Below, one piece after another: positions 623 through 18,133 of a stretch of DNA of 64,000 nt. Source of the DNA: Acanthochlamys bracteata (Eukaryota > Streptophyta > Magnoliopsida > Pandanales > Velloziaceae); NCBI GenBank assembly GCA_019914995.1, contig CM034130.1, positions 2,976,001-3,040,000 of the forward strand, written 5' to 3'. Below the pieces are notes generated by a model. The model was not told the origin of the DNA, made no database searches, and worked only from the letters and a program-made list of their open reading frames with translations. The position numbers and the translations under genes were made by a program. Numbering within the stretch: the stretch's first letter is position 1; each line of letters starts with the position of its first letter.

Positions 623-900
623 GTACGTGTTTCAAGTTAGTAGAACTTAAATTTCTTCCGTCGGAGTTTCACAAATTTTTTATATTTTAACTATAAATAA
701 AATTAGAAATTTAAAATTTTCAGTTCTATATAAATAAAATTTAAATTTCACTATATTTTTTTTTAAATTTACTTCTAATTCACTTCAAAAATTAATTAAA
801 ATATAAAAATTAAATTCTACTTCTAACTTATTTTTAAAAAAACTCTATTTTTTATTTTTTACTTTCATAAAATTTAATTACGGACATTTAAAATACACCT
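623..900. mobile_element. 278-bp MITE with TTA target duplication, short form of the 7980/11588 family
   Basis: The element is flanked on both sides by TTA (620-622 and 901-903). Its ends, GTACGTGTTTCAA and the reverse complement of TTAAAATACACCT, are imperfect inverted repeats. Both halves match the outer parts of the larger element at 7980-9234: the left part runs through the same 'aacttaaattt' stretch and the right part through the same 'aattaaatataaaaattaa' stretch. A 3-bp TWA duplication and a GC-start TIR suggest the PIF/Harbinger-Tourist group, but this is inference. It carries no gene. It lies about 160 bp upstream of the EPSPS start codon, so it sits in that gene's promoter region. 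Confidence 0.7.
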
Positions 901-6442: not shown

Positions 6443-7979
6443 GATTGTTAATATCCGGTTAGATCTTTCTCCGTGTTGTTGTTGTTGTTAAGTTAAAAAT
6501 TGAGAATGGAGAAAAAATAGTTAGACCTTTGTTTCTTTTTATTAGTGAGAGAGACGGAGCGGTCGAGGAGAGAGAAGATCATCTTGACCGTTTTCAGCTT
6601 GTAGTTTGGTATACTAGTTACGATTTAACATAATTTTTATAAATATTTAAAAAATTTGTTTAAAAATTTAAAATATAAGAAGTTTTATATAATAAAATTT
6701 TTTATTATATATTTTTATTATTTTTTTAAAAAATAAAACTTATTTTTAAAAAAGTTCTATTTTAAAATTTATTTTTTTCAAATGCTTTCTAGATCTAGAA
6801 TTTTCATTTTCTAGTACGTCAAAAATGTTTAGCTATTAGTAGCCCATAAATTGGTTTTCGTAGATCGAACCTTTTAATCATTAAAAAAAATTGGTTATAT
6901 TTTCTTATCACACCTGACAGAACGAGAAACTGTTTGTAATAAGGACTTCATTTGCAAACATTGTATTGTGTGGGTAAATATTGCAAAATAATATTGGTTG
7001 GTTTATTTGACCCGTAATGAAGGTGATGGGTTGTTGTTTTCTGACTTCTCAGTTCTTTAAGTTCTAGTTCTTACGCTAACGAATACAGAAACGTGTGGTT
7101 GATGTTGAAATATTTTTCTATTTTATGTTTACTTTCTATTGGTTGGGTCTTGTCAGTGCCCGAAAGGCTGAGGCTGCGCTGCAGTTGCTTGACCGAAAGG
7201 TCCATTTATGCCAGCTTAGTCTTACATATAGGATCCTTACACGTTGCGCTTACGTGATCATAGCAATATCGATTTTGTTGTTTTTGTTCTTATAATTCTT
7301 TTTTTAATAATTTCATGTCAGTTTCATTAATCAAAAATATAATAAATTATTTTTTACGTAACTTTTTTAAAGAAATATAAAAATTCAATTCAATTCTAAT
7401 AATACTGTTTAAAATTTTTAATTTAATACTTTGCATCCAAATAATTCACTCTTTATTCAAGGAATACGCCCTATATGTTTATTGGATAAAAGGTCCAACT
7501 AAATTTTCAATGGGCCTAATAAAATAATAGCTGGGTGCCGTCAAGCCTGTTTAGCAAATGAAGCAATTGTTGAATCATCATTAGCTCACTAATGGTTGCG
7601 TTTACCTACCACTCAAATTTTATTTTTAAAACTCATTTTTAATATAAAATAATAAATAATTTAAAATAAAATTTGTCTATCTAAATTCTTTTTCAAATTT
7701 TAATTTTAATTTTAAAAACTATAAATACAAATCAATATATAAAATTAATTTTATTAAATATTTTAAATTTTTAATTTAATTTTTTAATTTATTTATATAA
7801 AGTAAATTTATTTCAAAGTAAAGATACCTTAACCAGGCGTACACTATTTTCTTTTTTTTCTTTTTTATCGTCGGGATCATTCAATTGATTTGGAATTAGA
7901 TTATGAAACCGGGAAAGCGAGAGTTGTGGACGATTTGACTATGCTAAACATATGTAACTTTCAATCGAGCAGTATTTTA
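6443..7979. other. intergenic: transketolase promoter side
   Basis: The transketolase 5' UTR and promoter should lie just above 6443; a purine-rich stretch occurs near 6545-6580. From 6610 to 6790 is an AT-rich block resembling the small MITE family described at 14861. The region 7090-7300 is less AT-rich and has a 66-codon open frame that I do not recognise and would not call a gene. Confidence 0.5.
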
Positions 7980-8389
7980 GTGCGTGTTTTAAGTTGGTGG
8001 AACTTAAATTTTTTTTATCAGAATTAGAATTTCATTAATTTTTTATATTTCAAATGGACACAAAACTGAAGAACTCTGCTTCAAAAATACCATCGCCGAA
8101 ATTTTCGAATTTGCCGTCACTGATTTCCACTTTCCTAAAGTTTCACGACTTCCTATGTTCCACCGCTCGCCGTTCTTGGGATCCGATGTCAACAATTAAT
8201 ACAGTACTCGGTCGCTTGGAAATCTCAAGATAAGCAGTAATGGCCAGAGACTGAGTAAAGAGCAAGGATTGCGAAGAACATTGAGCTCAAGCGCTAGCAT
8301 GGACGGCGACCGAAGCTCCAATATTTATGACGACAACTAGATTTTCCTGAAGACACTCAAGGAGATCGCCATCAGCTATCTAGCGAGAG

Positions 8390-8755
8390 CAACATTTCAA
8401 CAAAATTATGAATGATCTGAACCGTACAAATAATGACGCCATTTCGTTTTCCAACGCTTCTTCTGTTTCTTCTGTTATTTCATCACCGTAGCGACCATTG
8501 ATTGGTTCGATCCAGCCGGAGCTGAGATGACAGGACGAACCGGTGCCAGCTATCGTTGAACGAAGGGCGAACAGCTTTGAGATTCCGTTTTCTTTGCGTA
8601 TCATCAAGAGGAAGATGAAATGGAAAGAAGGCATGCGGTTGAAGGAGGCCGGTGATTCTGCTTCGACCACGGTGAAGAAGGCGTTCTCGTCGATGACGTT
8701 CATGATCCGTGAGATGCAAAGCTTTACCGTACAGATGAGAGAATCCTTGTTATAT
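8390..8755 (+). pseudogene. captured fragment of a TPR-superfamily-like host gene (in copy A)
   Basis: A reading frame around 8543-8755 contains FEIPFSLRIIKRKMKWKEG, then EAGDSAS, VKKAFSSM, MIREMQSFTVQMRE. From memory this resembles the region of plant TPR-superfamily proteins (At2g29670/At1g07280 type) with a 'LKIIKRKLQ...EAGESA...VKKAFSSMVFIIREL' pattern. The similarity stops a few codons after QMRE, where the sequence turns into A/T triplet repeats. The upstream part of the captured stretch (about 8080-8540) also matches copy B but has no long open frame. There is no start, no TPR repeats and no complete gene, so I call it a gene fragment inside a transposon. Confidence 0.55.
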
Positions 8756-8785
8756 TGTATTATAAACATTACGTATTATACTTAT

Positions 8786-8822
8786 AATAATAATAATAAT
8801 AATAATTATTATTATTATTATT
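8786..8822. repeat. self-complementary AAT/ATT triplet repeat
   Basis: A run of AAT units switches directly to a run of ATT units, giving a perfect hairpin-capable sequence just after the captured gene fragment in copy A. The matching position in copy B (about 10527-10540) has only a short version, so the repeat expanded after the copies separated or was lost in B. Confidence 0.8.
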
Positions 8823-9680
8823 GTTACAATATTATATATTATATATGACAATTTATATAATATCTAAAAACTCTGCTAATTGAATATGTTACATATTTAT
8901 TAAAATTTATATATAGAGTATAATTGAATTTTATCTAATAAATAATTAGTAAGATTTATTATTTTAAAAAAAAATTATTTATAAATATTATATATTACTT
9001 TGAATTTAATTTAGTTCTCAATTTTAGATGCAATTGAAACACACAAAACTGAACTTCATTTTCGCTTCACTTTCAAATATAAATGAAACACAAAATCTGA
9101 ATTTCACTTCCAACTCACTTTAAAAATTAATTTAAATATAAAAATTAAACTTTACTTTCAACCCATTTTTTAAGAAACTCTAATTTTTAATTTTAACTTT
9201 TACGAAACTCGTTATGAACATTTGAAACACGCCCTAAGCGAACTTGAATACCTTTTCACTGCTTACAGTTGGTAAGTAGATCATGGACATCACTAGTTCA
9301 CTTTAAAATTTCAAAGGAGATGGAATGTAGGAGCTCCAAATACATAGGAGATGTTCGGAAGTGCTTTTGATAATAATTTTATTAAAATAAAAAATATTTT
9401 AAAAAAAAGTTCTATTTTTTTATTTAAGAAAAATAAAAATAATCAATAATAAGATATTTCAGTGTAATTTTTTTTGTATTTCCTATTTTTTAACATAATA
9501 TTTACTGAAAAATATATAATAAAAAATTAGAATAAAAAGGAGTTAAAAAGCAATCCTAGACATTACCTATCTTATTTTATTAGTATAATAAAATGCTATG
9601 AACGCTGTAAAAGTCAAGACCATTAAACCCACAACGGTACTAAAACAATTCTCGTTAAACTGTAATATGGTTGCAAATAA

Positions 9681-10168
9681 GAGCATGTTTTATTTATCAC
9701 CAAACTTCAATTTCATTTTTCAGATTTTGAGTTTTGAATTTTATGTATTTTAATAACCATTTCGAACTTTTTTTTCTTTCACACTTAGTTCTACTTCCGT
9801 CAAAATTTTACTTAAAAAATTCACTTTACATGTTTCAATTACCACTCCAAATTTTATTTTCATGAAATTTTATTTATCACAAAACTTCATTTAGGTGACT
9901 TCCTTTTAGAGTAGAATTGAATTATTAGAAAGTTGATTGTTAAAATGTGAGTTATTATCAATAGTATTGTTGAAATTGAGTTTAAATTTTGTATTTTTAG
10001 AGAAAAAATAAATTAAAAGTGGATTCCTTTATATAATTAAAAATTAATCGGAAGTAATTGTTTAGTGAAAACAAGTTAATTATAAGGATGAGTAAAAAAC
10101 TTTATATGAAACTTATTTTCGTAAGACTTATTTCATAATATTCAGTTATAAACATTTAAAATACGCTC
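9681..10168. mobile_element. 0.5-kb TIR element between the inverted copies
   Basis: The left end GAGCATGTTTTAT and the reverse complement of the right end, GAGCGTATTTTAA, are inverted repeats with the same core (G-GCRTRTTT) as the neighbouring family. Flanks are TAA and TTA. The inside is AT-rich with several words seen in the other elements but no gene. Its right end abuts copy B exactly where that copy loses its own last about 75 bp, so this element probably inserted into, or recombined with, copy B. Confidence 0.5.
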
Positions 10169-10589
10169 TTAATATTAAAAAATAGGTTAAAAGTAAAGTT
10201 CAGTTTTTATGTTTAAATTAATTTTTGAAGTGGGTTGGAAGTAAAATTTAGAATTTGTGTTTTATTTATATTTGAAAGTGAAGCGAAAATGAAGTTCAAT
10301 TTTGTGTGTTTCAATTGCATCTAAAACTGAGAACTAAATTAAATTGAAACTAATATATAATATTTATAAATAAAATTTTAAAAATAATAAATCTTACTGA
10401 TTATTTATTAGATAAAATTTAATTATACTCTATATATAAATTCTAATAAATATGTAACATATTCAATTAGCAGAATATTTAGATATTATATAAATTATCA
10501 TATAAAATATATAATATTTTAAAAATAATAATAATTATTACAAGTATAATACGTAATATTTATAACACAATATAATAAAAATTCTCTCA

Positions 10590-10960
10590 TATGCATGGTA
10601 AAGCTCTGCATCTCACGGATCATGAACACCGTCGACGAGAATGCTTCTTCACTGAGGTCGAAGCAGAATCACCGGCCTCCTTTAACCACATGCCTTCTTC
10701 CCATTTCATCTTCCTCTTGATGATACGCAAAGAAAACGGAATCTCAAAGCCGTTCGCCCTCCGTTCAATGATAGCTAGCACCGGTTTGTCCTGCCATCTT
10801 GGCTTCGGCTGGATCGAACCCATCAATTGTCGCTTCAGTGATGGAATAACAAGAGAGACGGAAGAAGCGTTGGAAAAAGAAACGGCGTCATTATTTGCAC
10901 GGTCTTCGAGGTTCGGATTGTTCATAATTTGTTGAACTGTTGCTCTCGCTGATAGCTGAT
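10590..10960 (-). pseudogene. captured fragment of a TPR-superfamily-like host gene (in copy B)
   Basis: The minus-strand frame reads from QLSARATVQQIMNNPN through ANNDAVSFSNASS and RRANGFEIPFSLRIIKRK to EAGDSASTSVKK, then loses frame relative to copy A before the FMIREMQSF part. Compared with copy A its frame is open further upstream, so B is a better record of the captured exon on that side, while A is better downstream. It has no start or full domain; it is a transposon-borne gene fragment. Confidence 0.55.
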
Positions 10961-10978
10961 GGCGATCTTTTCTCATAA

Positions 10979-11210
10979 GTCGTTTGGGGTGCTTATAAAA
11001 TAAATTTTTTTAAAATAGAAAATATTTTTATTTTTTTTACTTTTAAAAAAATAATAAAAATATGCAAAAAAAATTTCATTCCTAGAATTTTTCTACACTT
11101 TCTAAATTTTTAAATAAATTTTTTATATATTTATAAAATATGTATTAAAAAATATAAAATAAAAAAAAATTGATAAGTAGCGTTTGAAACGCTGCGCCAA
11201 ACGCTCCCTG
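10979..11210. mobile_element. AT-rich 0.23-kb MITE nested in copy B
   Basis: It starts near tcgtttggggtgctt and ends near gcgccaaacgctccct, inverted-repeat-like ends around a core of A/T runs. Copy A lacks it: there the flanking words 'actcaaggagatcgcc' are continuous, giving an empty-site comparison that shows a real insertion. It belongs to the same AT-rich family as copies at 14861, 15404, 16570, 16812, 20300 and 20668. Confidence 0.6.
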
Positions 11211-12379
11211 AGTCTCTTTAGGAAAACCTCATCGTCGTCATAAATATCGGTTTTCGGTCGCCGTCCATTCTAGCGCTTGAGCTCAACGTTCTTCTCAAGC
11301 CTTGCTCTTTACTCCGTCTTCGGCCATTACTGCTTGCCTTGAGATTTCCAAGCAACCGAATTCTGCATAGATTAGTGACACCGGATCCCAGAACGGCGAG
11401 CGACAGAACCTAAAAAGTCGTGAAAACTTTAGCGAAGTGGAGATCAACGACGCGAAATTCGAGGAATTATGCTACACTATTTTTGAAGTAGAGTTCTCCA
11501 GGTTCGTGTGCATTTTGAAACATAAGAAGTCGACGGAACTTTAATTCTGACGGAAGAAAGTGGAGTTCCACCGACTTGAAAGACGCCCTCATTCTTTTGC
11601 ATAGAGGAATGCAAATCGTTTAGAAGCTTTCTAACAAATATATATGATCGGCTAACCATCCCAATTCAACCTTCGACAAGTTCAACCTTGGCGTGCTAGT
11701 TTCTGGTTCCCATTAGAGGTTGACAAATAAACTTTCCCTCGGTGGTGTTTAGACATTATGATTGGCCCAATGGGCCTTTAACGGCGTTAATATACATCTC
11801 TACTTATAAATGATGCTGGCAAGTGATGACTTCTCGTTGCCAAAAAAATTATTATAGGTACTTTTTGTTTACCTTTATAAATTTATCTTCACAAATTTAC
11901 TTTTTAATAACTCAATTCAAAGAAACTCATTTCCAAACAATTTGAATACTTCCCAAGTACTTGAAGAAAGTATGCGTCCCACTTATGACCTTTGGTGTCC
12001 CACTATATTTATACAACTCATATCACATATTATGAAAAGTAATATTACTCTGATATTTTTAATAAAGTACTATATAGCTATAGGTTTGTTTGGGTTAACT
12101 GAAAATTAGAGCTTTTAAGAAAAGCTTTTATGAGTTTTTGGAAAAAAAAAACGTTTGTACATAATTATTCTATTATGTACAATTCATGAGTACTCTCTAA
12201 AAATTTTTTGCACACTTTGTTTTTTTGTTTAAAAGGTGATAGAAAGTTATTTTTTTTCAATCAATCTTACTTGCTTTCTATGTTTATGCAAATACATATA
12301 TATAGGTCATAACATTAAAAAAATATTTTAGTATAAGTAGATTACTAACAAGAAAAGTCATAATAAAATGAAAATACTC

Positions 12380-18054: not shown

Positions 18055-18133
18055 CACACTCTCGTTAAAACCCTTTCTTCTCCGTTCATTTAACTAACAC
18101 TCGGCTCAGTTGAAAGAACTTAGAAAACAAACC

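Follow-up and report, generated by a model that had tools for sequence, protein, structure and literature searches.

An inverted pair of gene-capturing PIF/Harbinger elements in a plant genome

Two elements that lie in opposite orientation in a stretch of 64,000 nucleotides (the window) are, with a probability of about 0.9, old and degenerate non-autonomous Pack-TYPE PIF/Harbinger elements which carry one and the same capture of part of exon 1 of a host gene and which were placed by separate insertions. The elements, here designated A and B, are about 0.94 kb apart with their right ends face to face (Table 1). The window corresponds to positions 2976001-3040000 of contig C5, and the genome that was searched comprises 195.5 Mb in 557 contigs. 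Genes for transketolase, EPSP synthase and a phosphate-induced-1 protein were recognised in the window by Pfam, which identifies the DNA as part of a plant genome. As far as recognised the pair is intergenic. It is situated between the transketolase gene, which is on the minus strand with its first exon starting near 6487 (recognised by eye), and the phosphate-induced-1 gene on the other side at 18098. No gene was recognised across the pair among the listed frames of at least 80 aa.

Table 1. Coordinates of the elements and their parts in the window
Feature	Position	Strand	Remarks
Short MITE, same family as A and B	623..900	+	278 bp; target duplication TTA/TTA; both ends common with A
Element A, complete Pack-type Harbinger element	7980..9234	+	1255 bp; both termini present
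Left arm of A, transposon-derived	7980..8159	+	about 180 bp; aligns to other family members
Captured host DNA in A	8160..8751	+	592 bp; about codons 49-249 in exon 1 of TPR-type gene on C10
Right arm of A, transposon-derived	8752..9234	+	483 bp; mostly common to at least 35 other places; in L065 downstream of DDE_Tnp_4 and Myb/SANT frames
Probable third Harbinger-like element	9678..10173	+	adjoins the broken end of B at about 10173; from genome matches and right-end likeness
Element B, inverted second copy	about 10175..11588	-	right terminus (about 60 bp) gone
Captured host DNA in B, downstream piece	10581..10968	-	from genome search with captured query
Later insertion in captured part of B	10969..11203	-	235 bp; related to DNA elsewhere
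Captured host DNA in B, upstream piece	11204..11402	-	from genome search with captured query

Structure of the elements and their family

Element A showed short terminal inverted repeats as found in PIF/Harbinger elements (GTGCGTGTTTTAA on the left and, as reverse complement, GGGCGTGTTTCAA on the right), in which 11 of 13 bases were identical by eye count. It is bordered by the triplet TTA on the left and TAA on the right, and thus by no identical target duplication. The left arm, a fragment of the C10 gene and the right arm together cover its full length. Alignments of the left arm to other family members reached position 127 of A at L069, position 157 at L012 and position 174 at L014. Among the five frames of at least 80 aa in 7980-11588 no transposase-like product was seen by eye, and a Pfam scan of the 128-aa reading frame of B gave no match. 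A lacks a transposase of its own and is therefore non-autonomous, as Pack-TYPE elements are. Within its right arm, at 8774-8836, there is a 63-bp stretch of imperfect self-inverted TAA/TTA repeats; inverted matches resembling this stretch were seen at several other copies of the arm.

The arms of A belong to a dispersed family. At least 35 other places contain the greater part of the right arm (40 of 1158 candidates were scored with the whole of A), and at least 39 others contain the left end (40 of 53 candidates scored). One of these relatives, L065 on C14, possessed two DDE_Tnp_4 frames (E values 4e-12 and 9.5e-7) and a Myb_DNA-bind_3 frame (6.9e-16), in the order DDE_Tnp_4, Myb_DNA-bind_3 and then an A-type right arm with 77% identity over 434 bp. 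Because transposase and Myb/SANT frames precede the same right arm in L065, the family was assigned to PIF/Harbinger. A left end of the A/B type was looked for in L065 and none was recognisable, and L069 possessed both family ends with other family DNA in between. Seven elements were inspected by eye for their target sites, and a clean TWA duplication was present in three of them, namely the short element at 623-900 (TTA), L070 (TTA) and L068 (TAA). For the remaining four the triplets were AAA/AAA in L069 and TTA/TAA in A and L067, and L066 was uncertain.

The sequence-only reading of the window had proposed that the short element, A and B share their outer sequences, and this was confirmed. 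The end matches between the short element and A extended over 135 bp in one case (79% identity, 111 bits) and 74 bp in the other (76%, 50 bits); the highest score among 300 Markov simulations of the short element was 39.2 bits. Most of the two long arms seen in A and B is absent from the short form. The same reading took about 1 kb of extra DNA in the long forms as captured, which was too much: only 592 bp are host-derived, and the rest consists of the transposon arms of about 180 bp on the left and about 483 bp on the right. It might be thought that host DNA of about 1 kb was simply inserted into a short MITE, since both ends are common to the short and the long forms. However, about 350 bp of right arm that the short form lacks are also present in the transposase-bearing element and in other long relatives, so that this part is old transposon DNA rather than captured DNA, and such a gain has hardly any probability. 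The idea that a TWA-duplicating MITE acquired host DNA therefore holds in so far as A and B do carry host coding DNA, but the long forms retain the arms of a transposase-bearing Harbinger relative and are not the short MITE with an insert. The short MITE itself lies about 150 bp 5' of the first-exon reading frame of the EPSP synthase gene, probably in its promoter region.

Element B is less complete. Its match to A stops at position 1194 of the 1255 positions of A, and because the right end is missing its target duplication is unreadable. The probable third element adjoins this broken end. Most genome matches cover the first 230 bp or so of the third element, and its right end is similar to the right ends of L066 and the short element (82% over 34 bp). 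The later insertion in the captured part of B is an AT-rich element with ends near CGTTTGG, of which 111 bp are 90% identical to a sequence on C2 (L071:3085-3195).

The captured fragment and its parent gene

The host-derived part of A matched C10:8197028-8197627 with 89% identity in the search and 90.8% when aligned (533/587). For B the identity to the same exon was 91.6% (542/592). A parent gene of the kind supposed by the earlier reading was thus located, at 89-92% identity, and it is intact, with exon 1 open for 504 codons. A and B therefore hold host coding DNA with an identifiable parent between transposon ends, which is characteristic of Pack-TYPE elements. The frame following exon 1 gave six TPR-type matches in Pfam; TPR_19 was above the cut-off (27.5 against 25), TPR_14 was equal to it (23.5) and the other four were below. 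On the basis of these matches in the next exon the C10 gene is of TPR type. The captured piece precedes the matches, so the proposal that it represents an exon of a TPR gene was right as to the gene, whose exon 1 it comes from, but the piece is N-terminal and contains no TPR repeat. A Pfam scan of exon 1 revealed no domain in the C10 gene or in its paralogue on C15, and one match below the cut-off in the paralogue on C14. Over the captured block the C14 and C15 paralogues are 84.6% and 80.6% identical to the C10 gene.

All six candidates obtained with the captured sequence as query were scored, and they comprised only A, B, the C10 gene, its two paralogues and a 174-bp match on C2. At the C2 place the gene match continues into the adjoining transposon arm for about 50 bp, and the point of junction is that of A and B. 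The genome search for other copies yielded a partial copy of the capture in addition to the places that share an arm or an end. This truncated third copy (L071:1257-1485) keeps the left transposon/gene junction and lacks both termini, and its surroundings look partly duplicated in tandem. The left junction is the same in A, B and the C2 remnant. Transposon arm and gene fragment have therefore moved as a unit, as expected of Pack-TYPE elements, and the shared junction shows that there was one capture before the spread. Among 177 aligned C2 sites, A, B and C2 agree against C10 at five, while none unites C2 and C10 against A and B; a single site unites A and C2 against B and C10 and does not fit a simple tree. 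The 583 sites of the captured part include 16 at which A and B agree and differ from C10 (the change being in C10 itself at some of them), 36 changes private to A, 32 private to B and two sites at which all three differ. From these counts we infer that the capture came first and that copying followed not long after. The capture could also have passed through an intermediate copy that is now lost.

As to how the exon piece was taken up, the alignment of the C10 exon with its paralogues revealed no indel or footprint at either junction. At the right junction the bases TTGTT are common to gene and transposon (by eye), a hint of repair with short identities. This identity of a few bases, together with a parent exon that bears no damage, makes copying more likely than excision. 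An ancestral element with a broken or lost interior would have taken up the piece during gap repair, and the transposase of a full-length relative would then have mobilised the capture-bearing element. Parts of a review (PMC13317346) describe capture by hybrid elements, which arise when adjacent elements have complementary deletions at their ends, and state that for unlinked genes an undiscovered mechanism may exist. The lost end of B, lying beside another element, recalls such hybrid elements, but the intact C10 exon argues for a copying step.

Since the capture the fragments appear to have drifted. Relative to C10 the changes at first, second and third codon positions were even in A (21/15/18, p 0.61) and B (13/16/21, p 0.38); in the paralogues they were concentrated at the third position (18/20/54 on C14, p 1.6e-6; 30/17/65 on C15, p 6.8e-8). 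The indels relative to C10 are a 1-base insertion and a 9-base deletion in A and, apart from the large insertion, four 1-base deletions in B; both elements carry frameshifts. Judged from these patterns neither fragment looks selected, and the changes look like those of neutral decay. C>T or G>A accounts for 23 of the 36 private changes in A and 22 of the 32 in B. Methylation was considered as the driver of decay and rejected, since no sequence context stood out in A (CG 8/88, CHG 4/56, CHH 17/160) or in B (10/90, 6/56 and 12/161).

Origin and possible activity of the inverted pair

Aligned with the reverse complement of B, A proved homologous along its length, as the sequence-only reading would have it. 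Identity was 75.6% over the left 180 bp (136/180 aligned sites), about 87.7-88.0% over the captured part (514/586 in one alignment) and 92.5% over the right part (370/400 sites, with 84 further columns being gaps). The inverted arrangement and the spacing, given as 0.9 kb by that reading, were likewise as described. That the second copy landed there is another matter, for which the flanks provide the evidence: at the left ends, the only comparable ones, the matches stop at the element border and about 40 bp of flank are without homology, which fits an insertion.

The same observation bears on the view that the pair arose as a local inverted duplication of one element, by repair or by aberrant transposition. 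Two of the three places with this capture are only 0.94 kb apart, and the loss of the right end of B resembles the outcome of an aberrant excision, both of which this view would explain. It accounts less readily for the end of homology at the left borders and for the presence of both termini in A. Moreover, the identity of A and B in the captured part (88.0%) is not above their identity to the parent gene, so that any duplication must be old. We regard a local duplication as rather unlikely. According to the preferred reading of separate insertions, A and B would have come to lie in opposite orientation independently and would have decayed neutrally since.

Whatever their origin, a transcript reading through both arms could give a long double-stranded RNA, and from the identities described here siRNA cross-talk with the parent gene is possible. 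Between A and B 76 21-mers are identical, and the longest identical run is 50 nt. With the C10 exon, A shares 76 identical 21-mers and B 81, in runs of up to 60 and 67 nt, and portions of the review mentioned above (PMC13317346) report captured sequences of maize as siRNA reservoirs able to silence donor genes. These points would suit a functional inverted-repeat locus, the long hairpin transcript of which would be processed to siRNAs repressing the C10 gene. Against this, the pair sits between genes as far as recognised and its arms are decaying without visible constraint, so that a functional locus of this type is improbable. The paralogues have few 21-mers in common with the pair (A none with C14 and three with C15, B six with C14). 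With the 76 and 81 that are shared with C10, the sequence would allow silencing to be selective for the C10 gene. That the pair acts, or acted in the past, as a natural hairpin-RNA locus which silences its TPR-type parent and spares the C14 and C15 paralogues would nevertheless be highly improbable.

A second capture and relation to known systems

The family has made at least one other capture, independent of that from C10. L012 (184-2279), L013 and L014 are elements of about 2.1-2.3 kb with common family ends and a common interior; the sequence fetched for L013 and L014 is cut off on the left at A positions 20 and 7, respectively. Approximately 566 bp of this interior are 90% identical, in antisense, to a WAK-like receptor gene on C12 with the domains GUB_WAK_bind and WAK_assoc. 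The three copies of this WAK-like exon are on C5, C1 and C6, the former two being 97% and 91% identical to the copy on C6. At the other fetched right-end loci captures were sought by eye only. A chimera of two genes, from C12 and C4, was considered for this second Pack family and rejected, as no gene-like frame is present at the C4 place, which looks like a further member of the family.

The inverted Harbinger pair clearly exemplifies a phenomenon that has been described before, and the finding alone alters no general view. It does show that a small plant genome houses a Harbinger family that captures genes. Since the parent gene can be traced, three places share the capture junction, one relative bears a transposase and a second capture was made independently, the family is suited to studies of the capture process. 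The inverted pair also lends itself to testing whether captured fragments act back on a single member of a small gene family.

Tourist-like MITEs of the PIF/Harbinger superfamily consist of ends only and have TWA target sites. The 278-bp element and similar short copies resemble them, whereas A and B differ by their host DNA and long transposon arms. None of the titles and abstract openings among the papers listed named an inverted Pack-Harbinger pair, which is not proof of absence in print.

Pack-TYPE elements of the Harbinger-PIF type have been reported from rice and maize by Gisby and Catoni 2022 (PMC8903248), and according to portions of that article 52.4% and 81.2% of the identified PIF elements are flanked by TTA or TAA duplications. 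As far as those portions describe them, A and B are like these elements in having non-autonomous Harbinger ends around host coding fragments and probably target sites of the TTA/TAA type. They are unlike them in coming from another plant genome, in the adjacent and inverted position of the two copies and perhaps in keeping long transposon arms inside the terminal repeats. With Pack-MULEs and the transduplication class, as outlined in sections of the review (PMC13317346), A and B have in common the capture of gene fragments, usually non-functional, by TIR transposons; they differ in superfamily, A and B belonging to Harbinger and Pack-MULEs to Mutator.
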